From: a virus
Length of the DNA stretch: 46,555 bases
IMG/VR virus record: IMGVR_UViG_3300032213_002526
Location: 1 to 46,555 of that record
Reading direction: 5' to 3' (one strand)
Positions 22,981-45,615 of the stretch are shown piece by piece. Made by a program: the position numbers and the translations under genes. Positions within the stretch are counted from its first letter, which is position 1. Each line of letters begins with the position of its first letter. The notes beneath the pieces were generated by a model. The model was not told where the DNA came from, made no database searches, and was given only the letters and a program-made list of their open reading frames with translations.

Positions 22981-24645
22981 ATGCCCGATCCGCAAGGCTT
23001 CATCGACTATCCCAACATCGCCAAGCCGATCGGCGGAAGCTACACGCTTTCGCACGGGATCAATCCCGGGTCGATCGTCATTTCGTTCGCTCCGCAGCAG
23101 CAGAAGATTCCCGAGTACGGCGACGTGACGATTCGGTACGCATCGACCCAGATGACGTTCCCCGATTGCAAGCTCGTTGCCCCTCTGTCGCAACTGAACG
23201 ACGCGGGCCAGATCATTTCGGTCACGATCTTGGATCGTCGCTGGCAGTGGCGGTTTGGTCACATCAGCGGGAAATACAACATCCGCAAGCAGGATGGCGA
23301 CGTTGACACGGCAACAGAGAAGACGCCGCAGGAACTGGCGGAGCTGCTGTTCCAGGCGATGGGTGAGCCAACCGGGGACGCGACCGCGTTGCCCAATGAT
23401 TCGCGGCCCGAGGTCGATTGGGACTTCGACAACCCGGCGCAGGAACTCGCCGAACTGTGCGAGAATCTCGGCTGCCGGATCGTCTTGAACACGAACAATA
23501 AGGTTCACATCCGGCGCCGCGGAGTGGGGCAACCGCTCCCAGACAACGGCAAGCAAATCTCGGTCGATTACGGGATCGATGCCGGGGTTCGCCCCTCGCA
23601 GTTGATGCTGGTTGGGGGGCCGGTGAAGTATCAAACCCGGTTCTCGCTGGAAGCTGTGGGACTAACGGCGGACGGGCAGTATCTGCCTCTGGACGAATTG
23701 CCGTACAAGCCTGCAGGCGGCTGGGAAGTAGACTTCCCGCCGCTGTTCGGGGCCGTGCTGGAGCAGCATGGGAAAGAGGCTCACCAGCTCGCTCAGCGCT
23801 CGGTGTACCGCGCCTACCGCATCAAGGGGACGGCACCTGGCGGCGGGTTCGTGTTCCGTCACGGACCGATCACCAACGCCAGCTTTGAGGACGTTGTTCC
23901 GATTGAAGACGTGCTCGTTGAGACCAGCACGGGACCGAACAACGTCCCCGTTCCGAAGCCCGCGAAAGTCGTGGGCGAATTCTGGAAAGACGAGTCGTTG
24001 CAGCTGGACGAGAACACGGGCGGCGAGACAGACCCGAATCAGTACAACAAGTCGTTTTCTGTCCGTGGCGAAGAGGGGCTGGTTGAGTTCAGCGACCCGG
24101 TGATCCGCATCGACAACGACAAGATTTATCCCGCCCGGCTGTTCGTCGAGTGTGCCCATTCGTTGCGGTTTTCGGATGATCGACGCATCTACCGATACAC
24201 GCGAGATCGGCGGTTGCCGGGCCTGCAGTTCACCACAGCGCCCATGATCATCAATGTGGACGAGGCAACGCTCACGATCGTCCAGAAGTACAACGCTCAG
24301 AATCAGCCTACGAACGTCGTGACGAACGAGCAGCAGATCGGCAGCGAGGCCGATCAGATCTTGGCGGAGCGAGTTGCCGAGTTTCAGCAGCCGGAATCCG
24401 TCGAACTCGAATACGCGGGATTGATCGACATTTCGCCAGACGGGGCGATCCAGCAGGTCGGCTGGAAGTTCGGCGAGTCGGGGGCGTTCACCAATGCGAG
24501 CATCAATTCGGAGTGGGACGTTGAGACGCCGGGCTACGAAGAACGACGGCGGCGGGATCGCGAGACGCGGGGCAAGATGAACGCCCGTCGGATGATCGCC
24601 GCGGGCAAGCGGCAGTCGCGTGAAATCGTCCGGCGGGGGCGGTGA
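22981..24645 (+). CDS. Probable baseplate hub / tail tip protein, 554 aa
   Basis: Its length, place and sequence fit a gp27-like hub. It opens with a beta-barrel-like region (SGHINPGSIVISFAP-type text) and VTILDRRWQWRFGHISGKYN. A helical EKTPQELAELLFQAMG and a second PAQELAELCENLGCRIV follow, with KVHIRRRGVGQPLP. This arrangement is seen in tail hub proteins that bind the tape measure tip. The C-terminus is basic (RRRRDRETRGKMNARR). The assignment to gp27-like proteins is by pattern, not by search. Confidence 0.55.
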   Translation: MPDPQGFIDYPNIAKPIGGSYTLSHGINPGSIVISFAPQQQKIPEYGDVTIRYASTQMTFPDCKLVAPLSQLNDAGQIISVTILDRRWQWRFGHISGKYNIRKQDGDVDTATEKTPQELAELLFQAMGEPTGDATALPNDSRPEVDWDFDNPAQELAELCENLGCRIVLNTNNKVHIRRRGVGQPLPDNGKQISVDYGIDAGVRPSQLMLVGGPVKYQTRFSLEAVGLTADGQYLPLDELPYKPAGGWEVDFPPLFGAVLEQHGKEAHQLAQRSVYRAYRIKGTAPGGGFVFRHGPITNASFEDVVPIEDVLVETSTGPNNVPVPKPAKVVGEFWKDESLQLDENTGGETDPNQYNKSFSVRGEEGLVEFSDPVIRIDNDKIYPARLFVECAHSLRFSDDRRIYRYTRDRRLPGLQFTTAPMIINVDEATLTIVQKYNAQNQPTNVVTNEQQIGSEADQILAERVAEFQQPESVELEYAGLIDISPDGAIQQVGWKFGESGAFTNASINSEWDVETPGYEERRRRDRETRGKMNARRMIAAGKRQSREIVRRGR

Positions 24646-24648
24646 TCT

Positions 24649-25335
24649 ATGGGCATCACAGACCCGAAAGCGGCAGTCGGCGGCGGCCGCTGGATGCCGT
24701 TCAAGAACATTGGCCCCGAGACCGTCCCGCCGTATGGCGTCATCCGGTTCGATGGGACCGAACTCATCAACGGGGCGATCGTCTGGAGGGCAATCAGGCC
24801 TGACGTTGAAGCGACGGTGGGCAATGTCGCGTTCAATGGGCCAACGTCAGTTGAGGTAAGAGCGTTCGGGGCCTGCACCTATGACGCTCCCTGCCGCGCG
24901 CTGTACAGCGATGGCAGTGATGACGACTTGGCGGTCAATGATGACGTTGGGCCTGAGGAGAATCAGTACCACCTGAAAAAAGGCAACTCAGGATTCAAGG
25001 TGCTTGGCGGGATCGACACAGAGGCGGGCTACTGTCTGATCGGAAAGGAAGGCGGCGGGGGCGGCGAGGGCGTTGCCTTCGAGATTGACTCGGTCGAAGA
25101 GTACGGAGAAATCAAGACGGCAACGTGTTCGATCCTGGCACGCGACAACCCGAAAACGACATCAGAGGGTGAGGACGAGAACGGGAAGATCACAGTACAC
25201 GATTTGACAGGCTGTTTCTTCGACGAGACTGCGGAAGAGCTGGTCGGCCGAAAGGGGTTCGCGCGGTACATGAAGGTTGAAGGCGAGACAGATCCGAAGT
25301 GGGTTGTTCACTCCCTCTGTTGTCCGCCGGAGTGA
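24649..25335 (+). CDS. Tail tip protein of unknown family, 228 aa
   Basis: A beta-rich protein with scattered cysteines (ACTYDAPCRALY, GYCLIG, LTGCFF, HSLCCPPE). It starts three bases after the hub gene stop and is followed by the Cys-rich protein gene. It is acidic in the middle. No motif is recognised. Co-location suggests a tail-tip complex with its neighbours. Confidence 0.55.
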   Translation: MGITDPKAAVGGGRWMPFKNIGPETVPPYGVIRFDGTELINGAIVWRAIRPDVEATVGNVAFNGPTSVEVRAFGACTYDAPCRALYSDGSDDDLAVNDDVGPEENQYHLKKGNSGFKVLGGIDTEAGYCLIGKEGGGGGEGVAFEIDSVEEYGEIKTATCSILARDNPKTTSEGEDENGKITVHDLTGCFFDETAEELVGRKGFARYMKVEGETDPKWVVHSLCCPPE

Positions 25336-25344
25336 GGTTCAAAG

Positions 25345-26598
25345 ATGGCCGCAAAGGGGAACAAATGCTGCTGCTGCGGTGAGTGCAAGGGCGTTGTTGG
25401 CTGCTGTGCGTGCGCCTGCAAGACACTCTGTTTTAGCATTGAGGGAGCCTACCAGACCTACGGCGCGGAAGCCGATTGGATTGACGAAGAATTCGCGGCA
25501 ACGCTCGATTCGGATAACGGCGAAGTCAACGTCTCCGTCACGTTCGAGGAAAACGAATACGGCTGTTTCGTGATCGGCAACGAGGACGGTTACGAAAAAG
25601 TTCGGTACGAGATCGGGGTAGACATCAATTGCCGCGCCCTGTCTGGGACAATCCCAACGTCCGTAGGTGACGTTGCCTTTACCTGCACCGACAAGATCAA
25701 ACCCGAATGCACTACCTGTGATTGCTTGTGCGAATGTATCTGCATCATCGTCCGGGACTTCACCGAGCCTTACGGAGGTGAGTACATCTACTCGGGCAAG
25801 GGTTGCTGGAATCAGTACACGCAGGAGTATTCCGGGACAGTTAACGAGCAGACGCAGACCGCTCCCAACCTGACGCGAGAAGTGCGGGCACTGATTCGCC
25901 CGAACGAGTACGACGGCACCTGTGAAATGGTCGTGTTGGTGGATGGCGAAGAGTCCGCCGTGATCCCGTTGACGCTGGAAAACTGCACGCGGCGGGAGTT
26001 CTCGCACGAGGTCGACATTCTCGACGAAGAGGGCGAGGTCAAGTACACGGTGTTGCTTCGGTGTGCCGAATGCCACGAAGAATGTGACCTGCCGCCGAAC
26101 CTGTGTTTCTGCCCTGGGCGAGTTGTTACTGCGATCACGGCAACGATGTTTTCCGGCCTCGTTTCGGGGCCCTTGGGTGTGGTGACGCTCACGCCCAGCT
26201 TCCTTTGTATGGACCTATGCCAGTCGGCGATCAAGATCGCGGGAGAGTGCCAAGCATTTGAGGGGCAGCTATCAACATCATTCCCGGTTGGGATGGGCGA
26301 GTTTATTGATGACACGATAGAGGTTCGGTTGTTTTGCCGAGTTGGATTCGAGCGATATTTTCAGTATCGGTTTAGTTCAGCCGTTGAAGCGGGAAACCCC
26401 GGTTGGACAGACACCGGAGTGTCAACGGCAAACGCTGCTTTGTTCCGTTGCTCGCCTACATTCTTCGACATCAGGTCTGCCGCTTCTGGAGTGTTTGGGC
26501 TAGAAGGGGCTAGCCCCGCGTGCCTGATCGACCCATTTGCCTCAACAGACAGCAAGACCGCGTACCAGATACAAGAATTCGTTCTGGAGGAGTCGTAG
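25345..26598 (+). CDS. Cysteine-rich tail tip / adhesin protein, 417 aa
   Basis: There are 33 cysteines in 417 residues. The N-terminus has KCCCCGECKGVVGCCACAC, a second cluster reads CTTCDCLCECIC near residue 120, and a third CAECHEECDLPPNLCFC near 235. Between these lie acidic beta-rich domains. Such clusters suggest disulfide staples or metal sites in an extracellular protein. The gene lies at the end of the tail module, where receptor-binding tips are often encoded. No catalytic motif is visible. Codon use in the last third is less GC-rich, hinting at local exchange. Confidence 0.6.
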   Translation: MAAKGNKCCCCGECKGVVGCCACACKTLCFSIEGAYQTYGAEADWIDEEFAATLDSDNGEVNVSVTFEENEYGCFVIGNEDGYEKVRYEIGVDINCRALSGTIPTSVGDVAFTCTDKIKPECTTCDCLCECICIIVRDFTEPYGGEYIYSGKGCWNQYTQEYSGTVNEQTQTAPNLTREVRALIRPNEYDGTCEMVVLVDGEESAVIPLTLENCTRREFSHEVDILDEEGEVKYTVLLRCAECHEECDLPPNLCFCPGRVVTAITATMFSGLVSGPLGVVTLTPSFLCMDLCQSAIKIAGECQAFEGQLSTSFPVGMGEFIDDTIEVRLFCRVGFERYFQYRFSSAVEAGNPGWTDTGVSTANAALFRCSPTFFDIRSAASGVFGLEGASPACLIDPFASTDSKTAYQIQEFVLEES

Positions 26599-26601: not shown

Positions 26602-27735
26602 ATGGCGTGCCAGTGCGAGATCGGTGCAGCGTGCGCCAAGCGAAACCTTCTGGTGACGGCCGGGATAAAATGGGCCTGCGAAAAGGGCGCTCTGGACGTT
26701 GGCGAGTGGGACACGTCGAAGCCCTCGCGCGGCCTCGGTGACGTGATCGCGAAAGTCACGTCAGCAGTCGGCATTAAGCCCTGCGGCGGATGCAAAGGGC
26801 GGCAACGGACGCTCAACCGGCTGTTCCCGTTCGCGTGGAACAAGGCGGCAAACCCTGTCCCGGAGTTCGTGACGACGGCCCGGCTGATGGAAGATGCAAA
26901 ACACCTGGCGACGATGCTGCCTGCCAACACAAATCGAATTGTCGGCGTGGCCCGGTCAGGTCTCTGCGTTGCCACGATGGTCGCGATGATTCGGCACCTT
27001 CCGCTTGATGTAGCAAGGCAGTCGAAGGGCGATGTGATCGAGGGTGGCAACGGCTGGCGACTCACGCGAGCGACAGCAGATGCGGGGCCGGGGACGATCG
27101 TCGTCATCGACGATACAGCGATGACCGGCAACTCGATCAAGCAGGTCTTGCCAGTCGTGAGACGGCACTACCCGGACGCATCAGTAAAGTCCGCCGTGGT
27201 CTACTGCAATCCACAGGCGAAGCAGAAGCCAGACTTGTTCGCCCGGAAGTTGCCTTGGCCTCACTTGCTTGAGTGGAACGTGTTCAACTCGGTCCTGTCG
27301 CCATCGACGGCAACGGACTTCGACGGCATTCTCTGCCGGGACTGCCTGCCGGGTGAAGATGACGAGGGGCCGCGATACCTGGAGTTTCTGCGGACCGCAT
27401 CGCCGCTCTACCCGATGCGCAAGGTCGCCATTCCGCTGATCGTGACTGCCCGGCTTGAACGATACCGAACCGAGACCGTGGCATGGCTGGAGCGTCACGG
27501 GATGCGAGCAGAAAAGATCATCATGGGGCCCTGGGCGAACAACCGGGAGCGAAGCCGCGTTGATATCGGGGCGTGGAAGGGCGAGCAGTTCAAAGCGTGG
27601 AGCCGGGGCCGTGGTGGCATCAAGCCGCTGCTGTTTGTCGAGAGCGACGAGCGGCAGGCGAAGCGAGCCGCGCAGGTCTCCGGCGGGTTGGTCGTGTGCC
27701 CGGCTGCGGGGCGTTGCTTCCTGGGGGATCAGTGA
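26602..27735 (+). CDS. Type I phosphoribosyltransferase fused to HAD-like phosphatase, 377 aa
   Basis: A GGAGG site lies upstream. The N-terminus is a Cys-rich adaptor (MACQCEIGAACAK; CGGCKGRQRTLNRLFP at 61-76). Residues about 90-205 are a type I PRTase with the PRPP loop VVIDDTAMTGNS (167-178). Residues about 235-377 look HAD-like: motif I DFDGILCRD (239-247), motif II VTAR (near 282) and a late acidic FVESDERQ. PRTase plus HAD pairs are known from nucleoside-metabolite pathways, including those linked to Ter stress systems. A nucleotide-like product is a reasonable inference, but the substrate is unknown. Confidence 0.7.
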   Translation: MACQCEIGAACAKRNLLVTAGIKWACEKGALDVGEWDTSKPSRGLGDVIAKVTSAVGIKPCGGCKGRQRTLNRLFPFAWNKAANPVPEFVTTARLMEDAKHLATMLPANTNRIVGVARSGLCVATMVAMIRHLPLDVARQSKGDVIEGGNGWRLTRATADAGPGTIVVIDDTAMTGNSIKQVLPVVRRHYPDASVKSAVVYCNPQAKQKPDLFARKLPWPHLLEWNVFNSVLSPSTATDFDGILCRDCLPGEDDEGPRYLEFLRTASPLYPMRKVAIPLIVTARLERYRTETVAWLERHGMRAEKIIMGPWANNRERSRVDIGAWKGEQFKAWSRGRGGIKPLLFVESDERQAKRAAQVSGGLVVCPAAGRCFLGDQ

Positions 27736-28316
27736 TGCTCGATCAGCATAACGCGGTCGTGCGGTCCTATCAGATTCCGGGATGGTGCTGGCCCGCCGAA
27801 CTGGCTTGGGTTTACGGGGCGTTCCGGGTTTCGCGAGTCCACGCGGAGATCGGGACGTTCTGCGGTCGGTCACTGTTCGCCTCGTCCGCCGGGATGGCAG
27901 GCGGGGCCAAGGTGTACGCCATCGACCGCGGAGTCGATCCGGCCGACACTCACGACGCATTCTATCCGCCGTCGCCCGAGTGGTGTGATGACGTGCTGGC
28001 GGCAACGCTCCGCGCGATCGGCGAGGCAGCTCCGGGCGTTGCGGTTGAGCGGGTGCCACTCAGTTCGCTGGACGCAGCCCGGTTGCTCCAGTCGCAGGGG
28101 GTGACTCTCGACAGCGTCTACATCGACGCATCCCACCACTTCGCCGACGTGATGGCGGATATCGCAGCCTGGCGGCCGCTGGTGAGGCCGGGCGGGATCA
28201 TCGCGGGGCATGACTACTGGTCGGCAAATGTGGGCGTGATGGACGCGGTAAACGAGTCTTTCGGGACCGCATTCGAGGTTGCACCGGGGACGCGAATTTG
28301 GGTCGCGAAGGTGTAG
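27735..28316 (+). CDS. Class I SAM-dependent methyltransferase, 193 aa
   Basis: The ATG shares one base with the PRTase-HAD stop (TGATG). The sequence matches the Methyltransf_24 layout: HAEIGTFCGRSLF (SAM-binding loop), GAKVYAIDRGVDP (acidic end of beta 2), SVYIDASHHFADVMADI and RPGGIIAGHDY. Such enzymes usually methylate small molecules or sugars rather than DNA. Tight coupling to the PRTase-HAD gene suggests one short pathway. It is the last gene of the plus-strand late region. Confidence 0.75.
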   Translation: MLDQHNAVVRSYQIPGWCWPAELAWVYGAFRVSRVHAEIGTFCGRSLFASSAGMAGGAKVYAIDRGVDPADTHDAFYPPSPEWCDDVLAATLRAIGEAAPGVAVERVPLSSLDAARLLQSQGVTLDSVYIDASHHFADVMADIAAWRPLVRPGGIIAGHDYWSANVGVMDAVNESFGTAFEVAPGTRIWVAKV

Positions 28317-29065: not shown

Positions 29066-29112
29066 AAGTATACGGATACTTATCGGGCATGTCAATAAGT
29101 CTCCGTATACTT
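29066..29112 (-). promoter_or_regulatory. Sigma70-like promoter within an 18-bp operator dyad
   Basis: On the minus strand, TTGACA (29090-29095) is followed after exactly 17 nt by TATACT (29067-29072). The promoter points toward the ribbon-helix-helix gene. The arms 29066-29083 and 29095-29112 are inverted repeats with one mismatch in 18 and an 11-nt centre, so a symmetric repressor would cover both promoter elements. The stretch 28831-29065 between promoter and gene holds no supported CDS, only this leader and the hairpin at 28876-28905. Confidence 0.65.
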
Positions 29113-29313: not shown

Positions 29314-29355
29314 GGATTAGAAATCCGTTGCTCTATCCAACTGAGCTACAGGCGC
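29314..29355 (-). other. attP core: 5' half of tRNA-Arg(TCT)
   Basis: Read on the minus strand this is GCGCCTGTAGCTCAGTTGGA followed by TAGAGCAACGGATTTCTAATCC, that is, acceptor 5' strand, D arm and anticodon stem-loop with anticodon TCT. Homology to tRNA stops within the 3' side of the anticodon stem, and no T arm follows. The fragment lies 17 bp downstream of the integrase stop. It should be the site of recombination with a host tRNA-Arg gene. Confidence 0.8.
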
Positions 29356-29371: not shown

Positions 29372-30667
29372 TCAGTCGAGTCCTTTCCGTCTTGCTCCGT
29401 TCGTTGCCGGTTTCGAGGTGTCCCCCGGAGTGTCGAGTTTGCTGGCGGTGGTTTCGGCAACGTTTCCAAGTGTGGTTTTCGTAGGTGTTTCTGCTGTCTC
29501 GCCCGCTGTTTGCACTGCATCCAATGCTGTTTCGCTCACCTTCCCCCACGCTTCCCACACGGTATCCGCCGTCGATTCCGCGTTCAAACCAACGTAGAAC
29601 TGCATTGTCGTCGAAATGTCTTCATGCCGCATCAGCTCCATGAGGATCGGCGGCATGACGAGCCGGGACCAGCGAAAACCGAACGATCGTCGCAGGTCGT
29701 GAGCAGAGACCGTCTTGCCCGTCCGGTCGTTGACGATCACCCCCGATGCGGCCCCAATGTCCCCTAGGATTTCTGACACACGAGAAATGCTCCAGGTGTC
29801 GCCGTTGCGTTTCTTTTCTTTCGGCAGCGGGAACACCAGGCCCTTGCGCCGACCGCTAGGAGTGGTCGGAGTTGATTCGAGGAACGCGGCAAAGTCTGGC
29901 GTGATCGGAAGCAGCCTATCGGACCGCCCCTTCTCGTCTTCCGAATGAACCCGAATCATCGGCCGGCGCCCGGACAGATCCACCAGCATTCCATCCGGCC
30001 GGTCCCATGAGAGTTTCAGTGCCTCGCCCAACCGCAGGCCGGACAGCCACAGCCCGCGGATCAGGCGTTGCCACGGGGCCGGGTGATCGACGCAGCGCGG
30101 GACCAGGGGAACGGCGGCAACGTATTGCTCCAGTTCCGCCTCGCAGATCGGGCGACCCTTCATGATCGACTTGCGTTTGCCGCTGCGGATCTTCGGCAGC
30201 GGCGGGACGGCGGTGAGCAGGTTGACCGATTGGGCCCAGCGGAGAGCGGCGGCGAGAGTGCGAACGTACCCGGCGATCGTTGTTTCCTGTCGCGTCCCGT
30301 CGCGGAGAAATGCGACCCACTGAGCGATTTGGCTGGAGGTCAGATCGGCAAGGCGGTGGGGTTTCGCGAAGGCTTCGATCGAAGCCAGGGCGGTTGAGGC
30401 TTTCGAGTCTGTTCCGGCAGAGTGGGCGGACAGGACTTCGGTTTCGTACCGCTCGCGAAACTCAGTCCAGAGCACGGCACCGGGGCCAAGTTCGCGCGAG
30501 TCCCGCAGCTCGCGTTCCCAGCGTGCGGCCGCCCGTTCGGCTTCGCGGGTGTCTTTTGTTGCAGCGGATCGAGCGTGTTCACGGCCAGTGACGGGATCGC
30601 GGTAGCGCAGGTAGAGGAAGGTGCGACCGGGCTTGCGGATGACGTGGACGCGGGGGAGGGGGGCCAT
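29372..30667 (-). CDS. int: Tyrosine recombinase / phage integrase, 431 aa
   Basis: The catalytic domain shows all key boxes: GLWLSGLRLGEAL (first Arg), SAHDLRRSFGFRW (His-x-x-Arg) and LMRHEDISTTMQFYV (His and nucleophile Tyr). The N-terminal region holds an arm-binding-like start (RVHVIRKPGRTFLYLRYRDPVTG) and a SAM-like core-binding domain. The C-terminal ~55 residues are Thr/Ala-rich and probably disordered. It ends 17 bp from the tRNA-Arg attP fragment, its likely substrate. It should integrate and, with an excisionase, excise the phage. Confidence 0.92.
   Translation of the reverse strand: MAPLPRVHVIRKPGRTFLYLRYRDPVTGREHARSAATKDTREAERAAARWERELRDSRELGPGAVLWTEFRERYETEVLSAHSAGTDSKASTALASIEAFAKPHRLADLTSSQIAQWVAFLRDGTRQETTIAGYVRTLAAALRWAQSVNLLTAVPPLPKIRSGKRKSIMKGRPICEAELEQYVAAVPLVPRCVDHPAPWQRLIRGLWLSGLRLGEALKLSWDRPDGMLVDLSGRRPMIRVHSEDEKGRSDRLLPITPDFAAFLESTPTTPSGRRKGLVFPLPKEKKRNGDTWSISRVSEILGDIGAASGVIVNDRTGKTVSAHDLRRSFGFRWSRLVMPPILMELMRHEDISTTMQFYVGLNAESTADTVWEAWGKVSETALDAVQTAGETAETPTKTTLGNVAETTASKLDTPGDTSKPATNGARRKGLD
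29418..29434 (+). repeat. Putative integrase arm-type site, right copy
   Basis: GTGTCCCCCGGAGTGTC is a direct repeat of 29191-29207 with one mismatch. It lies in the 3' end of the integrase gene, where it encodes the low-complexity tail (DTPGDTS on the minus strand). Confidence 0.4.
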
Positions 30668-30707: not shown

Positions 30708-31193
30708 TTAGATTGGGCGGCTTGCGTCTTGAGAAAACTTGTCCATTCGCGACAAAATCCCGGCGATTCCCCACAAAATCCACGCCCCAACGTTACCCGC
30801 CACGATCAGAATCGCCCCCATTGCATTCACGCCGTACTGAATAAGCGAATCCGAAGACTCTGCCTTTTGAAGCAGAAAGTACACGCCAAACCACACTCCC
30901 ATCCCAAGGCATAGAAATCCTGCCAGAACGATCCGTCCGATGAGGGGTGCGGGCTGTTGTTGCTTTCGGGCGCCCGTTTTAAAGCGAGGCGGCGTGTCAA
31001 AGGCTACAGGATCGTCATCCAGGGGAATTCGCAGTTTTTCGCTGTCTGCCGCAACCGATTTCGGTGGATCGGGGATCAGAAACGAATGTCCGCACGAGGA
31101 ACACTTGGCCCTCATTCCCGCGTTCTCGGCGCTCGCCAACAGCCGCTGATCACACTTCGGGCATGGCACGGTGTACTTGTCCACGGCGATCAC
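30708..31193 (-). CDS. Zinc-ribbon protein with two membrane segments, 161 aa
   Basis: It has a GTG start in a GTGA overlap with the upstream minus-strand gene. An N-terminal zinc ribbon (VPCPKCDQRLLASAENAGMRAKCSSCGHSF) is a well-known planctomycete-type module. A disordered linker and two hydrophobic segments follow (LIGRIVLAGFLCLGMGVWFGVYFL and GAILIVAGNVGAWILWGIAGIL). It probably sits in the cytoplasmic membrane with the ribbon inside. It is encoded beside integrase and so is likely expressed in the prophage. A lysogenic conversion or exclusion role is an inference. Confidence 0.7.
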   Translation of the reverse strand: MIAVDKYTVPCPKCDQRLLASAENAGMRAKCSSCGHSFLIPDPPKSVAADSEKLRIPLDDDPVAFDTPPRFKTGARKQQQPAPLIGRIVLAGFLCLGMGVWFGVYFLLQKAESSDSLIQYGVNAMGAILIVAGNVGAWILWGIAGILSRMDKFSQDASRPI

Positions 31194-31540
31194 CTTTTCG
31201 GCTTTTTCGTTGCCTGTTTCGCGGGGGTTTCCGCTGCTTTCTTGGCGACTGCGAGGGCCTTTCTGCGGTCGTTGTCTGCCTTGTGGAAGGCCGCGCTTGA
31301 TCGGACTCCAAGGGCGAATGCCTGAGACTGCGACCTCGCTTCACTCTGGACTGTCACGCTCCAGTCGATCAGCCGGGGCATCGTCTGATTCATGAATGTC
31401 CCGGCATGAATCAGGACTTCGGGGGTTGGCGGATCTGTATCGCCCATGAGGCGAACCGCCTCCGCGATGCTGTCGGCTGCGTTTCGGACGGCGGTTGCAA
31501 TCCGTTGCAGTTCTTCGACGGTCACCACATCGCGAGCCAA
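31190..31540 (-). CDS. Hypothetical helical protein with lysine-rich tail, 116 aa
   Basis: A TTG at 31540 is favoured because GGAGGG (31547-31552 on the minus strand) stands 7 nt before it. A longer TTG-started frame from 31624 has no such site. The protein is alpha-helical (EELQRIATAVRNAADSIAEAVRLMG) and ends in an Ala/Lys/Pro tail (KKAAETPAKQATKKPKR), which resembles histone-like tails and may bind nucleic acid. It is coupled to the zinc-ribbon membrane gene downstream. Confidence 0.55.
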   Translation of the reverse strand: MARDVVTVEELQRIATAVRNAADSIAEAVRLMGDTDPPTPEVLIHAGTFMNQTMPRLIDWSVTVQSEARSQSQAFALGVRSSAAFHKADNDRRKALAVAKKAAETPAKQATKKPKR

Positions 31541-31794
31541 GGCAAGCCCTCCGTAACGCTGTTCTGAACCTGTTTTAAACGTGTTCTGAGAAATTCTTGT
31601 AAATCGCTCGGCGTTTACACGCAAGGGCTTACGTTTAGAGCCACGTTAGAAATACGTTACAGCCACCGCGTTGTGCTTGCGTTGTTTTGGAAGAACTCGT
31701 ATCTTCCCACCGTCGCGACTGAAAACGGACCAGCGACACGAGCAACGAGACGCGAAGAGCAGCACGAAGAGGACGAGGACCAGGAGCGAGCAGG
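31541..31794 (+). promoter_or_regulatory. Divergent control region with repeated ACGTT boxes and candidate promoter
   Basis: It separates the minus-strand lysogeny genes from the plus-strand early genes. ACGTTT (31631), ACGTTA (31643) and ACGTTA (31654) are spaced 11-12 bp, about one helical turn. TGTTCTGA occurs at 31560 and 31582. On the plus strand TTGCGT (31677-31682) and TATCTT (31700-31705) are 17 nt apart and could be the early promoter. The boxes would lie just upstream of it. Confidence 0.35.
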
Positions 31795-32184
31795 ATGCCA
31801 ACGCCACGATCAAAACTCGTAGAAAACGCCCGCCTCGCGCGGCTGGCGAAGCAAAAGCGAAAGGCCACCCCGCGAGCAAAGTCAGGCAACGGGGGCGCTG
31901 GATCAGCAACGGCAACGAAGGCTCGCCCAACGCGATCCCGCGAGATCGTTGCCACGACCAGCTACCCGGTTGACCTGTTCCTTGAAATCACCGGGCTGTC
32001 ACCGGGTGCGTTGCGGATGTGCCAGCGTGACGGGCTGCGGGTCGTGCGGAGGGGCTGTCGGCGATTCGTGCTGGGTGAGGAGTGGATTCGGTATCTGCGC
32101 GAAGTCGGGAAAAGCGAAGCGGAACACAACGACGCAGATCACGACGCAGCAGAACACGAGCAGGAGGCAACGTCAACGCGATGA
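31795..32184 (+). CDS. Excisionase-like / helix-turn-helix DNA-binding protein, 129 aa
   Basis: The N-terminal 50 residues are basic and disordered. Residues about 60-105 (YPVDLFLEITGLSPGALRMCQRDGLRVVRRGCRRFVLGEEWIRYL) have the winged-helix pattern of small excisionase and MerR-like DNA-binding domains. The C-terminus is acidic and His-rich. It is the first gene of the early region, opposite the integrase block, so excision or early regulation is plausible. A GAGG site precedes the ATG. Confidence 0.6.
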   Translation: MPTPRSKLVENARLARLAKQKRKATPRAKSGNGGAGSATATKARPTRSREIVATTSYPVDLFLEITGLSPGALRMCQRDGLRVVRRGCRRFVLGEEWIRYLREVGKSEAEHNDADHDAAEHEQEATSTR

Positions 32185-32300
32185 TCGACCCAGCGAGCGA
32201 CCTGTATCAGATCGTCAAAGCCGGTGGCCCGTGGTTCGCAATGCTGGGCGTTGCAGTGCTGTTCGGGTGGCAGGAATGGCGAAGCCGGGAGCGGTGGTAA
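32181..32300 (+). CDS. Small single-pass membrane protein, 39 aa
   Basis: The ATG overlaps the preceding stop (ATGA). The protein has one hydrophobic segment (GGPWFAMLGVAVLFGWQ) between polar ends, the form of a small membrane peptide. It is short, and coupling is the main support. The function is unknown. Confidence 0.5.
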   Translation: MIDPASDLYQIVKAGGPWFAMLGVAVLFGWQEWRSRERW

Positions 32301-32310
32301 GAGCCGATGG

Positions 32311-32382
32311 CGGGGCGTGGAGAAGCGGTATCTCGGTGGTCTCATAAGCCACAGATCGCGGGTTCGATTCCCGCCGCCCCCA
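32311..32382 (+). tRNA. tRNA-Met(CAT), initiator-like
   Basis: A full cloverleaf of 72 nt: acceptor CGGGGCG with CGCCCCC, D stem GAGA/TCTC, anticodon stem GTGGT/GCCAC with loop CTCATAA, 5-nt variable loop, T stem GCGGG/CCCGC with loop TTCGATT, discriminator A. Base 1 and base 72 are C and C, so they cannot pair. The D stem has A11:U24. Both are initiator features. The anticodon stem has G29:C41 and G30:C40, but U31:G39 replaces the third G:C. CCA is not encoded. Confidence 0.85.
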
Positions 32383-32462
32383 ATGGATGACTGCGGCGTG
32401 TAGCTGTGGTCCTTTTAGCGGAAGCATGAGGCTACCCGCGGACGTTGGTTGGAGTTCGGAAA

Positions 32463-32726
32463 ATGCTCGTTTTGTCAAGGAAGCAGGGCGAAAGCGTGAT
32501 GATCGGTGACGCGGAAGTGGAGGTCGTTCGGTGTGGCAATGGCGGGGTGAGGCTGGGGATTAAAGCCCCGGACTCGATCCGCGTGTTGCGCAGCGAACTC
32601 CGAGACGATCCGAAGTACCAGGGGCCATACAGCGGCCCACATCACAGCAACGAATCACGGAAGTCGGAAGGACCGCTCGCGGCGGAAATGGAGCTGGCGA
32701 AAGCTGGCTCTCGTCGCGCGGGCTAG
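32463..32726 (+). CDS. csrA: CsrA-family RNA-binding regulator, extended
   Basis: The N-terminal 46 residues are a clear CsrA: MLVLSRKQGESVMIGDAEVEV, then VRLGIKAPDSIRVLRSEL. The RNA-contacting Leu4, Arg6 and the Arg of VLR (Arg43, equal to Arg44 of E. coli) are kept. The usual family length is about 60 residues; here there are 87, with a polar, probably disordered extension from about residue 55. A TTGGAG site is 9 nt before the ATG and itself contains GGA, so self-binding is possible. It could redirect host translation after infection. Confidence 0.88.
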   Translation: MLVLSRKQGESVMIGDAEVEVVRCGNGGVRLGIKAPDSIRVLRSELRDDPKYQGPYSGPHHSNESRKSEGPLAAEMELAKAGSRRAG

Positions 32727-32735
32727 GACGGCTGA

Positions 32736-32939
32736 GTGAGCATGACCGGGTCAGCAGCCGGGGCGGGTCGGAGACCTGCCGCTCCAACATCGCCAGTTGC
32801 AGGCGATCTGCTGGAAGTAATGCAGCGTGATCACGGGCTAGAAGGGATCGTCGCACCAACATCGTCGCGGATTGAGGTGGGGCGGACTTGGCTGGCTGGC
32901 TTCGATGCCACCGTGATTACTTCCTGTCTTTTGAACTGA
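32736..32939 (+). CDS. Hypothetical protein, 67 aa
   Basis: It has a GTG start 10 bp after csrA. The N-terminus is Ala/Gly/Pro-rich; the second half (DLLEVMQRDHGLEGIVAPTSSRIEVGRTWLAGF) looks foldable. There is no motif. Support comes only from spacing between two better genes and strand agreement. Confidence 0.4.
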   Translation: MSMTGSAAGAGRRPAAPTSPVAGDLLEVMQRDHGLEGIVAPTSSRIEVGRTWLAGFDATVITSCLLN

Positions 32940-32987
32940 GTAGGAAGCGAACTGCGCTATCGGTGCGCACAGAGAAAGGCAACAAGC

Positions 32988-33563
32988 ATGGTCACGGAAT
33001 TCGACTTTGACACATCCGGCTTCGATCCGGGTCTCCCATCGCCCGAGTCAGTAGGGATCAAGGCAGCGACGTTGCCCGCCCCCACCAATGCCTCAGTGAT
33101 TGACGACCCGCTCCCAGATGCGGACCCCGGCTTCCTGCTGAATCCCCTCACCGAAGCAATCATCCCACCCGACGACGTTGATCAGATGATCGACGCCTAT
33201 CAGGAGATGAAAGCCTTCGGCGATCGGCTCTACGCAGCCCAAATCGCGATCCGCCAGAAGCTCGCGGACATCACTCGCGGCCAGACGGAAGCCAAGACGC
33301 GGCGGGTCCAGGGGCGCAGGCGGAAGGCCAAGATCGAGATGCCGTCGCCGGGGTGGGACCAGAGCATCCTGAAGGAAGCGTGGAACGCCTACCCGCAACT
33401 TCGGGACCAGGTGCTGAAGATCGACACGGTGGGCGTAAAGGCCCGCGAGTGGAAGAAGCTGGCCGAGACGGCGGGTGTGCCTGAGGTCGAGACGTTCCGC
33501 GACATGATCAAGGCAGCAGTCAAGCCGCCGACCGGAGCGCCGACGATCACGATCGAAGAGTAG
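32988..33563 (+). CDS. Replication-region protein with EFDFDT motif, 191 aa
   Basis: The N-terminus reads MVTEFDFDTSGFDP, a motif shared with the MutS-domain protein at 43059 and, in weaker form, with the protein at 35279. A Pro-rich linker follows, then a helical, basic middle (QEMKAFGDRLYAAQIAIRQK; RRVQGRRRKAKIEMP) and a C-terminal folded part. No enzyme motif is seen. It precedes the RecT-like gene, so an accessory recombination or replication role is plausible. Confidence 0.6.
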   Translation: MVTEFDFDTSGFDPGLPSPESVGIKAATLPAPTNASVIDDPLPDADPGFLLNPLTEAIIPPDDVDQMIDAYQEMKAFGDRLYAAQIAIRQKLADITRGQTEAKTRRVQGRRRKAKIEMPSPGWDQSILKEAWNAYPQLRDQVLKIDTVGVKAREWKKLAETAGVPEVETFRDMIKAAVKPPTGAPTITIEE

Positions 33564-33630
33564 CGGAGAAGCGAAGGAAGCGGTGTCACAGGGCAGCCAT
33601 CAGTAAAGCAACGGAGCAGGGAGTTTCGCG

Positions 33631-35034
33631 ATGTTGGACGCAAGTAACACGGGCAACGGAACAGCGGTCGAAGAACCGCCGTTCGACACGAGTCAGCAGG
33701 GTAGCAGCACGCCAGCGGGTCAATCCGGGGCCGCACAGAGCAACGCAAAGTTCAGCACGGGCACGGGCGGGGCGTTGCTCGCGGTGACGACGCAAGCCTA
33801 TGAGTCGATCAAAGACCCGGTTGAGTGGGCGAAGGTCACGGGGCAGGCAATCCACCTGTCGGGCATGTTTGGTTGCAACAATCCGGGACAGGGCTACGTG
33901 ATCGCGATGGACGCTTGGACCCGGCGAGTGCCGATCATCCAGTACGCGCATACCTACCACTTCATCGAGGGCAAGCTCTCGATGCGGGCTGACACGATGC
34001 TCGCCCGATTTCGTGAGGCAGGCGGGCGTTGCGAGTGGAAACACAACGGCGAAGACGGGAAGCAGGCCGTTGCTAATTGGACGGTGGACGGAAAGAAGTA
34101 CACGATCGGTTACACGATCGAGGAAGCTCAGCTTGCCGGGGCCTCGTTCAAGCCTGGCTCGAACTGGTCGAAGCGGCCGGGCGAAATGCTGCGGGCACGT
34201 TGCACCTCGAAGGCGATCCGGATGCTGATGCCTGAGGTGATTTCGGGCGTCTACTGTCCCGAGGACTTCGAGACGGGCGAGGATGGCCAGCCTGCCCGGC
34301 TGAAGCCTGACACAGTGGGGATGGTCCCCGTGGAGAATGTCGGCAACGTCCCGAGGATTGTGCACACGACGGCGCAGGCTCCCGTTGCGGCTCCTGCTCC
34401 GATCGTCACGCCCACCGCGCCAGTCGTTGCCTCTGCTCCCGTGAACGCATTCGCCCAGCATGTCACAACAATCCGCGATCTGGCGAACAAGCTCGCCATG
34501 CCGATGGACGCCTACAACGCGATGTTGGCGAAGCGGGGCGTGGCGAGTCCGGCGGAACTGACGGTTGAACAGGCGTTTGCGCTGATTAAAGCCATGTCGG
34601 AAAAGCTGATCGCGAAGAGTGCAACGTCTGCTGTTGCTCCCATTGTGACGGCTCCCGCTCCCGCAGCTCCGGCCGCCCCAGAGTCCAAGCTCAACATGCC
34701 GATCGTCCCCGGCTCTCCCGGTTACATCACCACTTCGCAGGCAGTGCGACTCTCCGAACTCCGCCAAGCGCTCGGGATGACCGACCTGCAATGGGCCGAA
34801 TCGGTGCTCCGCAAGCGGGGTCTGAACGGAACGCACGAACTCCCGGAAGCCGACGCGGCGGTGATCATTGCCAAGCTCGAAGCGAAGCTCGCGGCGGCGA
34901 ATCCGAGCACCGATCCGCGGGCTGTTCTCGACGCTCAGAAGACGGCAGAACTCACCGAGTGGGCGAACGGGGCAACGCTCCCAAAGCCACAGACGGGCCC
35001 GCAGACAGCGGCGCCCGGACCGTCGAACGGCTGA
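33631..35034 (+). CDS. RecT-like single-strand annealing recombinase, 467 aa
   Basis: Residues about 45-215 match the RecT superfamily layout: GCNNPGQGYVIAMDAW, YHFIEGKLSMRADTM, a beta-hairpin region, FKPGSNWSKRPGEMLRAR and PEVISGVYCPEDFE. RecT proteins anneal complementary strands during phage recombination. Residues 220-340 are an Ala/Pro linker, and the C-terminus holds two helical segments (residues about 275-310 and 360-400, similar to each other in the pattern AKRGVASPAELTVEQAFALI / RKRGLNGTHELPEADAAVII), possibly a small duplicated domain. An AGGGA site precedes the ATG. Confidence 0.75.
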   Translation: MLDASNTGNGTAVEEPPFDTSQQGSSTPAGQSGAAQSNAKFSTGTGGALLAVTTQAYESIKDPVEWAKVTGQAIHLSGMFGCNNPGQGYVIAMDAWTRRVPIIQYAHTYHFIEGKLSMRADTMLARFREAGGRCEWKHNGEDGKQAVANWTVDGKKYTIGYTIEEAQLAGASFKPGSNWSKRPGEMLRARCTSKAIRMLMPEVISGVYCPEDFETGEDGQPARLKPDTVGMVPVENVGNVPRIVHTTAQAPVAAPAPIVTPTAPVVASAPVNAFAQHVTTIRDLANKLAMPMDAYNAMLAKRGVASPAELTVEQAFALIKAMSEKLIAKSATSAVAPIVTAPAPAAPAAPESKLNMPIVPGSPGYITTSQAVRLSELRQALGMTDLQWAESVLRKRGLNGTHELPEADAAVIIAKLEAKLAAANPSTDPRAVLDAQKTAELTEWANGATLPKPQTGPQTAAPGPSNG

Positions 35035-35057
35035 TCGGCCGGAGCTGGGGCGAGTTG

Positions 35058-35219
35058 ATGAACGACCCGACAACGTGGCCCGAGAGTCTGCGGGACGTTG
35101 TCAAACAGCACGGCGGCGAGCGGGTGTATGACGTGGGGTTGAAGGTGCTCGGATATCCGCCGACGTGGCTGATGGAGAGAGCAACGGCAGACAGAGTGAT
35201 TGAGGCAATAAAGGACTGA
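35058..35219 (+). CDS. Hypothetical small protein, 53 aa
   Basis: The ATG at 35058 lies 23 bp after the RecT-like gene. The protein (MNDPTTWPESLRDVVKQHGG, then LGYPPTWLMERATADRVIEAIKD) looks like a compact helical domain. A longer upstream frame overlaps recT and is rejected. The function is unknown. Confidence 0.5.
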   Translation: MNDPTTWPESLRDVVKQHGGERVYDVGLKVLGYPPTWLMERATADRVIEAIKD

Positions 35220-35278
35220 AGCGAAGGGCAACCAGTTTGAGTTTCAGAGGGTTCAAGTTCTCAAGAGGAGATCGTTCG

Positions 35279-36079
35279 ATGAGTACGGGATTCGCAGGTG
35301 AGGCGGCAACGGCGGACAATGGATGGGCGGCCAGCGCTCAGGACTTCGCCGGGACGGGAGAGTTTGAGTTTGACGCATCGCAGGTCGATACGACCAAGGT
35401 CGGCAACGAGACCAACTTCGTCATCGAGAAGCCGGGGAAGTATCACCTTGAAGTGACGTTTGCCGAAAACCGGCTGGAAACCATCAGGGACGGACAACAC
35501 GCGGCGCCGCACGTGCTCGTTGCCTTGACTGTCGCTCACACGGTTCCGGGCCAGTCGCCGGAAGGGTCTCGGCTTTTGGTGACCCTGTACATTGCGGGCG
35601 ACGGCGGTGGAGAGCGGAAGAAATGGCAGACGGAAACGACGATCAACCTTCTCGAAGGCTTCGGTCTGGTCGTTCGAAAAGATGGACTGTTGATCGACCC
35701 GGAAACGGGAACGACGAAGCTGAACTGGAAGACCTGGGCGTCTCGACTGCTCGGGATGCAGGTCATCGGCGACGTGCGGATGAGCAAGGAAGACTTGCCG
35801 AAGTATCCGTCAAAGGCGGAGTTGGGCTACGGGCGCGGGGTCTACCAGATCACCGATGAGAAGGTGAAGGACGTTTCGAAGAATGTCGTTGCCCTGAATG
35901 CTTGGTTGGCTGCGACGGGGCGCGGGCAGTCTGCGGGGCTGGCGAATCCGCCCGCTCCGAAAACGGTGAACAACGTCCACACGGCCGCTCAGGTTCAGGG
36001 TGCTCCCGTTGCCTCTGCTTCGACGAGTGCTCCGGTTCAGGACGCTCCTGCAACCACTCAGTCGTTTGACGATCTGTAA
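35279..36079 (+). CDS. Putative single-stranded DNA-binding protein, 266 aa
   Basis: The ATG at 35279 has an AAGAGGAG site. After a motif GEFEFDASQVD near residue 27 comes a beta-rich domain (KYHLEVTFAENRLETI, HVLVALTVAHTVPG, SRLLVTLYIAG, KKWQTETTINLLEG) that could be an OB-like fold. Then a disordered Ala/Pro/Thr linker and an acidic end QSFDDL, which resembles the tail by which SSB proteins recruit partners. Place between RecT and RecD2 genes supports the idea. No direct family match is claimed. Confidence 0.45.
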   Translation: MSTGFAGEAATADNGWAASAQDFAGTGEFEFDASQVDTTKVGNETNFVIEKPGKYHLEVTFAENRLETIRDGQHAAPHVLVALTVAHTVPGQSPEGSRLLVTLYIAGDGGGERKKWQTETTINLLEGFGLVVRKDGLLIDPETGTTKLNWKTWASRLLGMQVIGDVRMSKEDLPKYPSKAELGYGRGVYQITDEKVKDVSKNVVALNAWLAATGRGQSAGLANPPAPKTVNNVHTAAQVQGAPVASASTSAPVQDAPATTQSFDDL

Positions 36080-36188
36080 CAGGCCCGGTTGCCCTGGGGC
36101 GAAGCCTCGGGTGCGGTCGAGAGCGCATCCGGGGCTTCGCTTTTTTCGTCTCTACAAACTTCCATGAACACACAGCAGGACGCTGGCG

Positions 36189-37286
36189 ATGGCAACAGCA
36201 ACGATCCAGCCGCCGCTCCAGCAAAACAGGGGCGTGCGAGCGAACGAGAATCAGGAAATCAACGTCGCGTTCAGCAGCGAGAAGTGGCGGGCGAAGGATG
36301 GCGGGCTGTTCGTAATTGCCACGGGCGAGTTGATCGTTGAGCCGGGAGAGAAGACGGGCAACGAAATCCCGGGAGTCCCCGCTGGCTGGGAATCTTCCAG
36401 TGTCACCCTCGTCGGCGAGTGCGAGCGCGGCGAACTGATCGCAGGCGTTGCCTACCGCTTCTTCGGTCGCTGGGAAACCGGTAAGCACGGCAAGCAATTC
36501 CGCTTCAAGAACTTCGCCAAAGGCCAGCCGCACAACCGCCATGGCCTCGTGAAGTACCTCGACAAATACTGCTCAGGCATCGGGCCGGGCATCGCGGGAC
36601 GGCTGTTCGATGCGCTCGGCTCGAAAGCTGTGGCGAAGCTCCGCAACGATCCAGAGGGCACGGTTGAGGAAGTCAACGCATTCTGTCGGCGGCAGATTCT
36701 GTCGCTGGACGTTGCCAAGAAAGCCTCGGAGGAACTGCGGGCGGTCGCAAAGCTCGAAGATACAGAGATCGCACTGATGGACCTGTTGAGCGGCCGGGGC
36801 TTTGGCTCGCAGCTCATGAAGCAGGTGATGGCGAAGATGGGGGCACTGGCTCCCGAGCGAATCCGCCGCGATCCGTTCTGTCTGTTGGCGATGCGGTTCC
36901 CTGGCTGCGGATTCCTGCGAGTGGACAAGCTCTACAAGGATCTGGGTCTGCCGGTCACCAGGCTCAAGCGGCAGTTGTTCGCGTTGCTCCATGCGATGCG
37001 AACGGACGGCAACGGTCACACGTGGTTCAGCGGTGCGGAACTCGCCGTGAAGCTCAGGCAGGCGATCGACGGGCTGACGCCGCGAGTCGAGAAGGTGGTT
37101 CAGCTCGGAGTGAGGGGCGGCTGGCTCGCGGTTTGGCGGGAGCTGGATGAGGTGGACGCGGTGACGGGTGAAGTGGTGAAGCGGGGGGCGGTCTGGGTGA
37201 CGGAGAGGGAGAAGGCGGTGAATGAGGCGGTGATTGCGACGCAGGTAGAGAGGTTGCAGGGTTGGCTTGTGGAGGTGGACCGATGA
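36189..37286 (+). CDS. RecD2-like helicase, N-terminal domain as separate protein, 365 aa
   Basis: Residues about 60-120 resemble the beta-barrel start of RecD2/YrrC (SSVTLVGECERGELIAGVAY; GKHGKQFRFKNF). Residues 135-260 carry helix-hairpin-helix units with YCSGIGPGIAGRLFDALG and SLDVAKKASEEL. These are the DNA-binding modules that precede the motor in RecD2. No Walker motif is present. The stop overlaps the ATG of the motor gene (ATGA), so the two halves probably work as a complex. Confidence 0.72.
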   Translation: MATATIQPPLQQNRGVRANENQEINVAFSSEKWRAKDGGLFVIATGELIVEPGEKTGNEIPGVPAGWESSSVTLVGECERGELIAGVAYRFFGRWETGKHGKQFRFKNFAKGQPHNRHGLVKYLDKYCSGIGPGIAGRLFDALGSKAVAKLRNDPEGTVEEVNAFCRRQILSLDVAKKASEELRAVAKLEDTEIALMDLLSGRGFGSQLMKQVMAKMGALAPERIRRDPFCLLAMRFPGCGFLRVDKLYKDLGLPVTRLKRQLFALLHAMRTDGNGHTWFSGAELAVKLRQAIDGLTPRVEKVVQLGVRGGWLAVWRELDEVDAVTGEVVKRGAVWVTEREKAVNEAVIATQVERLQGWLVEVDR

Positions 37287-38836
37287 CAACCGAACGCCCA
37301 TCCCAACCCACCCTCTGGCCCGACTGCTTCTCCATCCCGGAACTCACTCCGCACCAACAACAGCAAGCCTCCCTCGCAACATCCGCCCCCTTCGGCATCC
37401 TCGCCGGAACACCAGGCACCGGAAAAACCTTCACCGCCGCCGCGATCATCCGAGCCACCGCTCGGCAAATCTCAAACGCCCTGCACTGCGACGGCGTGCA
37501 AGCCCTCGCGGTTGCGGCCCCCACCGGGAAAGCAGCAGTCCGTTGCTCAGACGCGATGCAAGCCTACGGTCTCGAAATCAACGCGACGACCATTCACCGC
37601 CTGCTCGGGATCACCCGCAACGGGCACGACGGCAGCGGCTGGGGGTTCTTCTACAACCGCGACAACCCGTTGCCCTATCGCGTGATCGTCGTCGATGAAG
37701 TGTCGATGCTCGATACCGATCTGGCGGCCAGCTTGTTCGACGCCATCGCACCAGGGACTCACGTTCTGTTCGTCGGCGATCCGTACCAACTCCCGCCCGT
37801 CGGCCACGGCGCCCCGCTCCGTGACATGCTGCTGGCCCGTCGCCCAGATGGGTCTCAGGTAGTTCCATTTGGCGAGCTGACTGAGATCAAGCGGAACGAC
37901 GGGGCGATTGTTCGAGCCTGCCGGGCGATCCGGGCGGGCGAGCGAGTGCTCCCCCCTGCCCCGCATCAGTTCGATGTTGCCTCTGGAGTCAACTGGAAGC
38001 ATCACGAGATCGGTCGCCCGGCGATGCAGTTGGCGGCGCTCCAGACGCTGATTCAGTGCTGCCCGCCGGGGATCAACCCGATTTGGGACATCCAAGTTTT
38101 GACCGCGGTGAACGAGTCGGGCGAGTTGTCACGCCGGAAGCTCAACGAGGAACTGCAACGCATCCTGAATCCGCACGGGAGCCGGGTTGACGGGTGCTCG
38201 TTCAGAGTCGGGGACAAGGTGATCTGCACCTCGAATAACTGGCACGTCTTGCACGAGGACGAGCACGGGCGGAAGTCGTGGGAGTGGACCAACGACCCGA
38301 GCTGCAACAGTCGCGGGGTGGGTGTGTTCGATGAGGACGACAACGACAACGGAGAGCGGAAGGATTTCGTTGCCAATGGCGAGATCGGCCGGGTGGACGA
38401 CATCACCGGGGCGGATCTGTTCATTCGGTTCTATGGGCCGAAGCGGGTGATCCGGGTGCCGTTGAAGATGGTGAAGAAGCGGGACGCGGCAGGGGAGAAG
38501 AAAGAAGGCAACGGAGAAGCCAGTACAGAGGGCAACGAAAAGCCCGCCGGATTCAACGGCGACTTCGACCTAGCCTACGCGATCACCACCCACAAAGCCC
38601 AAGGCTCGCAAGCCCCAATTGTTATCTCACTTGTCGATGAGTCACGCGGCGCGGGAATGGTGACCTCACGCGAGTGGTGGTACACGGCCGCCAGCCGGGC
38701 TGAAAAGCTCTGGATGACGATTGGAAAGATCGAAGTGCTGAACAGGCAGTGTAAGCGGGTGGCGTTGAGGGATCGGAAGACATTTCTCGCGGAGCGTCTG
38801 CGAGCGGATCAACATCAGGAAGCGGGGGTGGTGTGA
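37283..38836 (+). CDS. RecD2-like superfamily 1 helicase, motor part, 517 aa
   Basis: Walker A GTPGTGKT (42-49), Walker B VVDEVSML (Asp138-Glu139), GDPYQLPPVG and the C-terminal YAITTHKAQGSQAP, followed by WWYTAASRAEK, give a complete SF1B (5'-3') RecD-type motor. The protein lacks the N-terminal hairpin domains, which the preceding gene encodes. The ATG at 37283 in the ATGA overlap is chosen over a further upstream frame. It probably unwinds recombination or replication intermediates. Codon use at the start turns C-rich compared with the preceding gene. Confidence 0.87.
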   Translation: MTTERPSQPTLWPDCFSIPELTPHQQQQASLATSAPFGILAGTPGTGKTFTAAAIIRATARQISNALHCDGVQALAVAAPTGKAAVRCSDAMQAYGLEINATTIHRLLGITRNGHDGSGWGFFYNRDNPLPYRVIVVDEVSMLDTDLAASLFDAIAPGTHVLFVGDPYQLPPVGHGAPLRDMLLARRPDGSQVVPFGELTEIKRNDGAIVRACRAIRAGERVLPPAPHQFDVASGVNWKHHEIGRPAMQLAALQTLIQCCPPGINPIWDIQVLTAVNESGELSRRKLNEELQRILNPHGSRVDGCSFRVGDKVICTSNNWHVLHEDEHGRKSWEWTNDPSCNSRGVGVFDEDDNDNGERKDFVANGEIGRVDDITGADLFIRFYGPKRVIRVPLKMVKKRDAAGEKKEGNGEASTEGNEKPAGFNGDFDLAYAITTHKAQGSQAPIVISLVDESRGAGMVTSREWWYTAASRAEKLWMTIGKIEVLNRQCKRVALRDRKTFLAERLRADQHQEAGVV

Positions 38837-39036
38837 TGCTGTTTTCAAAATTCCGAACAGCCGATTCGATGTGGGCCGCCATCGCCTTTGCTGTTGGGTT
38901 TGCGCTCGGGTTCATTGTTGCCTACTCGGAATGCGAGCAAACGCGGGCCGAGTTGGCCAATCGGTGGATGGTGATCGGTGGGCAGAAGATCGACGTGGAC
39001 GAGCTGGCGCGGTTTCTGAAGGAGCGTGGCAAATGA
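38836..39036 (+). CDS. Small membrane protein, 66 aa
   Basis: It overlaps the helicase stop by one base. One transmembrane helix (MWAAIAFAVGFALGFIVAY) is followed by a polar helix (QTRAELANRW) and ends KERGK. The function is unknown. It is coupled to its neighbours on both sides (ATGA at the end). Confidence 0.6.
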   Translation: MLFSKFRTADSMWAAIAFAVGFALGFIVAYSECEQTRAELANRWMVIGGQKIDVDELARFLKERGK

Positions 39037-39275
39037 TCAGAACATCCCTCATCACGCACCCCCTACCAGACTCGCAAAAGCGAACACTGGTAGCGATGGG
39101 TGAACTCACAAAACCCTCGACCTGCAGCGAAGTCGCCCAGCAGGTTGCGGCGAGGACTGGATGCCGACGCGGGAATCTTTCGCAAGTGCTGTCTGCGCTC
39201 GTGACGCGGGGCTTGGTAAAGCGGCAGGTGTCGGGGAACGTGGTTCTTTATTCACGGACGGAGGTGGCGTGGTGA
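39033..39275 (+). CDS. Winged-helix DNA-binding protein, 80 aa
   Basis: It starts in an ATGA overlap. The sequence PSTCSEVAQQVAARTGCRRGNLSQVLSALVTRGLVKRQVSGNVVLYS is a MarR/ArsR-like winged helix: helix, recognition helix, then a beta wing. It probably regulates early or replication genes. Its small size suits a one-domain repressor or activator. Confidence 0.65.
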   Translation: MIRTSLITHPLPDSQKRTLVAMGELTKPSTCSEVAQQVAARTGCRRGNLSQVLSALVTRGLVKRQVSGNVVLYSRTEVAW

Positions 39276-39496: not shown

Positions 39497-39499
39497 ATC

Positions 39500-40057: not shown

Positions 40058-40090
40058 GGGAAGCAACGCAAAGACAGCAGCAACACAACA

Positions 40091-45549: not shown

Positions 45550-45615
45550 CTCGAAGCGAATCACGAACTCTCAGAGCAACCGAAACTCTTGGAGCCAACA
45601 GAGAGGGGGTGATCT

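Follow-up and report, generated by a model that had tools for sequence, protein, structure and literature searches.

A PRTase-HAD fusion and its linked methyltransferase in a tailed phage: a probable ribofuranosyltransferase for glycan decoration

What does a tailed phage make with a phosphoribosyltransferase (PRTase) fused to a HAD phosphatase and followed by a methyltransferase? The question is raised by the window analyzed here, that is, the whole 46,555-base stretch of a single virus record (IMGVR_UViG_3300032213_002526), which belongs to a temperate tailed phage. The terminase, portal, capsid, and tail genes are on the plus strand, the PRTase-HAD/methyltransferase region comes after them, and the genes downstream of the methyltransferase are on the opposite strand; the region ends the late operon, as the initial annotation had stated. 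That annotation had also proposed a ribosylated and methylated small molecule as the product, such as a signal or an anti-defence compound.

The fusion gene (26602-27735, plus strand) encodes 377 amino acids with an N-terminal Cys-rich module and was delineated from its ORF, Pfam, PHROG, the alignment, and the model. Its ORF starts 3 bases past the stop of the preceding gene, with a Shine-Dalgarno-like GGAGGAG upstream (26586-26592, plus strand). The SAM-dependent methyltransferase gene (27735-28316, plus strand; 193 amino acids, Methyltransf_24) has its ATG at 27735, inside the TGA stop of the fusion gene, which gives a one-base overlap, and is preceded by a putative ribosome site, GGGGGA, at 27723-27728. 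The architecture first described for this locus, with Cys-rich, PRTase, and HAD parts fused and a Methyltransf_24 gene overlapping by one base, was thus recovered from ORFs, Pfam, PHROG, fold, and motifs. Directly upstream, a Cys-rich late protein (25345-26598, plus strand), possibly an acceptor or virion protein, had no match in Pfam or PHROG. Two further upstream late genes, at 24649-25335 (cluster c6) and 22981-24645 (cluster c9), both on the plus strand, keep their position in relatives. No promoter or terminator was found above chance.

Residues 86-230 of the fusion (26857-27291, plus strand) form a predicted type I phosphoribosyltransferase domain. PF00156 (Pribosyltran) matched residues 109-229 (E=5.3e-9, 36 bits against a gathering cut-off of 26.3), and a fold search with the model placed residues 86-230 nearest to hypoxanthine/xanthine-guanine PRTases (HGXPRT/XGPRT), with Z about 16.9. 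The PRPP loop, VVIDDTAMTGNS, corresponds to residues 167-178 (27100-27135) and carries the acidic pair D170 and D171, plus G176. The Pfam score, the two-acid loop, and the modeled fold all fit the type I assignment. Purine PRTases have this fold and this loop in common with the fusion, which differs from them by its attached HAD domain and by the context of its relatives, glycan assembly rather than salvage.

The HAD phosphatase domain follows at residues 231-377 (27292-27732, plus strand). The C-terminal 140 residues of the fusion were not recognized by Pfam, and PHROG polynucleotide kinase profiles matched the HAD part weakly (2.6e-4), while hmmsearch gave a match to the Pnkp1 profile (2e-5). 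The closest folds were those of the T4 Pnkp 3'-phosphatase (Z 12.4, 122 residues) and of bacterial Pnkp1 (Z 12.1). The motifs DFDGIL and VTAR were present, motif I (DFDG) occupying residues 239-242 (27316-27327), together with K326 (27577-27579) and E347 (27640-27642); D239, D241, and T282 also fit the HAD scheme. With its DxD, Thr/Ser, Lys, and acidic motif and its predicted fold, the domain fits the phosphatases of the HAD superfamily. The fold and catalytic motifs are alike in Pnkp and in the fusion, but Pnkp has a P-loop kinase domain, whereas the fusion lacks a kinase and has instead the PRTase and the Cys-rich module. The structure-based search suggested by the initial annotation bore out both of its domain assignments.

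The AlphaFold2 model of the fusion was computed from an alignment of 86 sequences (the window protein and its relatives). Its pLDDT was 88 overall and exceeded 90 for almost every part of the PRTase and HAD domains, with lower certainty for the first 80 residues; the HAD domain modeled alone reached 96. Retention of the key PRPP and HAD residues had been set in advance as a check, and the PRTase columns G120, D171, and G176 and the HAD columns D239, D241, G242, K326, and E347 were invariant in the 86 relatives. Since these active-site columns never vary, both sites look active.

Single-sequence searches retrieved no genome matches and one fragment of the same virus, and among annotated phages only the Cys module was matched. 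After this poor yield, relatives were retrieved with a profile built from plasmid relatives. The fusion was found in this way at 62 viral loci, and 494 matches were obtained in bacteria and archaea sampled at one genome per species, 80 of which were kept. In the tree, built from 86 sequences as was the conservation alignment, the window grouped with planctomycete-type viruses and Planctomycetota contigs (L010-L014, L072, and L073; 53-63% identity), which makes a planctomycete the probable host of the phage. The cellular members grouped elsewhere, with distinct phage lineages in their vicinity. The fragment mentioned above (L002, another IMG/VR contig) has an identical start of the fusion gene (100% over 143 amino acids) and probably comes from this virus, or from one almost identical to it, in a different sample.

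The methyltransferase was assigned to Methyltransf_24 on both a match above cut-off (PF13578, E=5.2e-14, 53.4 bits against 26.3) and conserved motifs, the residues E38, G40, G44, D126, D131, H134, D142, and GHDY being conserved in 21 relatives. Its best PDB match, 6g7d, which we take to be the mycobacterial sugar 1-O-methyltransferase MeT1, was set aside as evidence. Methyltransf_24 was present in 27 of 51 viral records, and a methyltransferase resembling that of the window lay within 1 kb of the fusion, mostly overlapping it, at 19 of the 62 viral loci. These linked loci are spread over three or more separated regions of the tree (the main clade; L058; and L053, L061, and L068), so that the linkage reflects more than one inheritance. 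The association of the two genes, on which the initial annotation depended, therefore holds in relatives.

The genomic surroundings of the relatives contain genes of glycan assembly. Plasmid relatives adjoin glycosyltransferases, lipopolysaccharide proteins, an acyltransferase, and an exopolysaccharide polyprenyl transferase. At the genome loci, the 98 adjacent proteins included matches to Glycos_transf_2 (15), Glyco_trans_1_4 (8), Polysacc_synt (6), and Wzy_C (6), with GT4-type, O-antigen ligase, and methyltransferase families among those matched; the counts overlap and cannot be summed. The GT2 background in ten of those genomes was 217 per 50.6 Mb, or about 0.45% of genes, so that 15 of 98 neighbors corresponds to about 34 times the genome rate (binomial P about 8e-19, approximate as the loci are related). 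These statistics are based on longest-ORF gene calls and partly related loci. Among viruses, GT2 occurred in 22 of 50 records, and 15 of these 22 have it no more than 2.5 kb from the fusion (3.4 expected). The trio of PRTase-HAD, Methyltransf_24, and GT2 was found in three alphaproteobacterial-type prophages (L053, L061, and L068) and in L044 and L056, with both partners adjoining the fusion in L053, L061, L044, and L056 and close by in L068; L058 has a match to a GT29 sialyltransferase (1.9e-7).

Similar settings were found close to the window in the tree. In L013 and L014, the fusion and the methyltransferase lie downstream of tail genes (a tape measure in L014) and upstream of a CMP-sugar synthetase-like gene (CTP_transf_3, 5e-5; PseF, TIGR03584, 8e-8 in L013); L013 additionally has a weak GT-B match, a radical SAM protein, and a second Methyltransf_24. 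In the planctomycete contig L072 (Pirellulales), the fusion is preceded by a homolog of the 25345-26598 protein (28.7% identity), which stands directly upstream of a glycan cassette. There, a GT2 (2.2e-13) is upstream of the fusion, and two polysaccharide pyruvyltransferases are on either side of it (L072:6354-9600), the only PF04230 matches in the 8 Mb genome; the setting looks like a prophage. Two other candidate glycan genes were set aside: the identification of L072:7065-7590 as sulfotransferase-like obtained no confirmation, and c7 (about 195 amino acids, downstream in some relatives), a sialyltransferase/Maf-type candidate by motif, had no match in Pfam or annotated phages. In two Rhizobium plasmids (L006 and L007), the PRTase-HAD gene has a caspase-like peptidase on one side and a glycosyltransferase on the other, and a VgrG-type gene comes next.

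The position of the relatives amid glycan-assembly genes in both cells and viruses argues for glycan decoration and not for a signaling molecule. We thus propose, with confidence somewhat above even, that the PRTase-HAD fusion is a two-step PRPP-dependent ribofuranosyltransferase, accompanied by a probable capping O-methyltransferase, for phage glycan decoration. The PRTase would first transfer ribose-5-phosphate from PRPP onto a glycan, the fused HAD domain would then strip the 5'-phosphate, and the Methyltransf_24 enzyme would add an O-methyl group to the sugar, which might cap the chain end. Docking of the enzyme on its target would probably fall to the N-terminal Cys-rich module, and the best candidate for that target is a virion protein made late, for example the Cys-rich one encoded at 25345-26598. 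Taken together, the anatomy, folds, active sites, linkage, and context make the ribosylation of a glycan the probable reaction, but several observations count against it. No recognized glycosyltransferase was found in the window by Pfam among the 25 of 28 families listed, most of the closest viral relatives of the window either lack GT2 (PF00535) or have it at a distance, and by fold alone a purine-type PRTase and a Pnkp-like HAD suit nucleobases or nucleic acids.

As to the object decorated, the late-operon place beside tail and capsid genes and the precedent of mycobacteriophage virion glycosylation, as cited in PMC12619734, lead us to favor the virion, a choice to which we give about half of the confidence placed in ribosylation. 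Mycobacteriophages also encode sugar-modifying enzymes, and the virion is the target that we propose for the fusion; here, however, a PRPP-dependent enzyme would add ribose. The same ribosyl-glycan chemistry could instead be directed at the host surface, in lysogenic conversion or a superinfection block, which we regard as unlikely. Phage glycosyltransferases that alter the host serotype in lysogeny are known (PMC12619734), and this temperate phage has an integrase gene (29372-30667, minus strand) and, alongside, a tRNA-like fragment; yet the genes belong to the late structural operon, 3 bases past a late gene, and not to a lysogeny module, and no membrane flippase or GT-C partner was found in the window among the 25 of 28 families listed.

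A less probable explanation is the one put forward initially, in which the two fused domains would yield a small nucleoside-like molecule, subsequently methylated to give a signal or an anti-defence compound. In its favor are the closeness of the PRTase fold to purine PRTases and the Ter systems, in which, according to PMC7824862, a PRTase is paired with a HAD phosphoesterase as in the fusion, including in a jumbo phage. The fusion departs from these systems, however. Its score for PRTase_2 (PF15609) was 12.1 bits against a cut-off of 28.8, no TerD was found in the window or in a set of 50 related viral records that includes fragments, PADLOC gave no match, and the neighbors of its relatives are glycan genes. 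The proposed kinship with Ter systems was therefore abandoned, and what stands of the initial reading is its chemistry, ribosylation followed by methylation being plausible given the intact predicted sites and the linkage to a SAM methyltransferase, while the neighboring glycan-assembly genes speak for another product. Salvage of bases by the PRTase, with the Pnkp-like HAD trimming 3'-phosphates or nucleotides in salvage or repair, seems very improbable despite the proximity of the HAD to T4 Pnkp/Pnkp1 in fold and sequence noted above, as a kinase domain is missing, its place in the N-terminal half being taken by a PRTase, neighbor counts give glycan genes and not RNA ligase or repair genes, and the gene is in the late structural operon.

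The Cys-rich modules offer a further view of glycan ribosylation and its target. In the window, the module corresponds to residues 42-81 (26725-26844, plus strand; GLGDxIA...GIKPCGGC..R..LNxLFPF) and matches phrog_32048 (E=2.3e-8). As the short Cys-module profiles were too weak for searching, DNA patterns were used instead. The motif GLGDxIA...GIKPCGGCxxRxxxLN mostly occurs as a stand-alone phage protein of 50-120 amino acids, but other PRTase-HADs carry it as a fused part as well, as do a GT-B enzyme (PF13692, 1.3e-3), an NlpC/P60 protein (4.4e-5), and, as judged by eye, a GT2-like protein. A different Cys-rich module of the relatives is fused to GT2 (1.7e-27) and GT25 (7.6e-6). Fusions of this kind may single out a group of enzymes that decorate virions or surfaces. 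We infer that the modules bring glycan enzymes to one shared late target, and we guess that they bind zinc. In other viruses (L157, L209, L207, L189, L278, and L272), Cys modules are located at the front or back of glycosyltransferases or an NlpC/P60 protein.

Enzymes with a comparable logic have been described in bacteria. The gPRT-PRP ribofuranosyltransferases comprise CriT/CrpP of Bcs3 from Hib, Cj1432 from Campylobacter, and the Klebsiella O4/O7 enzymes (PMC10299916, PMC12096443, PMC11231755, PMC11127046), and chemistry in which PRPP is used first and a HAD acts next has been proven for such ribofuranosyltransferases (PMC10299916, PMC12096443, PMC11127046). Like the fusion, they associate a PRPP-type transferase and a HAD phosphatase in a single polypeptide, their genes belong to polysaccharide clusters, as do those of the bacterial relatives of the fusion, and their use of PRPP as donor with removal of the 5'-phosphate is what the fusion would presumably do. 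The order of the domains, however, is opposite: the HAD comes first and the transferase second in Bcs3 and Cj1432 (PMC10299916, PMC12096443), whereas the fusion has PRTase then HAD. Moreover, CriT of Bcs3 has a divergent PRT-like fold with helical bundles (PMC10299916), in contrast to the compact, canonical HGXPRT/XGPRT-like PRTase of the fusion, whose HAD is Pnkp-like. Neither CriT, CrpP, nor the Thermobacillus PRP was among the PDB profile and fold search matches of the fusion domains, a remote relation being possible. With a different domain order, a different transferase fold, and no detected sequence relation, the fusion family falls outside the known gPRT-PRP class on these features; it would work like these enzymes but with a different build.

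This leads us to a broader and more tentative suggestion, to which we attach less than even confidence. The fusion family could be another class of glycan ribofuranosyltransferases that use PRPP, a second one with an evolutionary origin of its own, made of a canonical purine-type PRTase and a Pnkp-like HAD. It would be widespread among bacteria, archaea, and phages, and the literature searched does not describe it in these terms, with phages decorating virion proteins with methylated ribofuranose via interchangeable Cys-rich docking modules common to other phage glycosyltransferases. Where the ribofuranose of bacterial glycans comes from was settled only recently, for one enzyme class. If this suggestion is true, hundreds of genes annotated only as "phosphoribosyltransferase family protein" would become predicted glycan enzymes, PRPP-derived sugars would join the known decorations of phage virions or host surfaces, and the shared Cys-rich modules would flag further decoration enzymes in uncultured phages.

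Beyond this locus, the tRNA-like fragment TTAGAAATCCGTTGCTCTATCCAACTGAGCTAC (29317-29349), the sole copy within the window, is located 23 bases from the integrase stop and is probably the phage attachment site. An operator-like inverted repeat of 18 bp, AAGTATACGGATACTTAT / ATAAGTCTCCGTATACTT, with an 11-base spacer, was observed at 29066-29112. Matches to DUF5906/D5-type, RecD2, RecT, ERCC4, and MutS domain I were obtained among the 55 window proteins scanned, and our guess is that the corresponding genes lie at 31000-46555.
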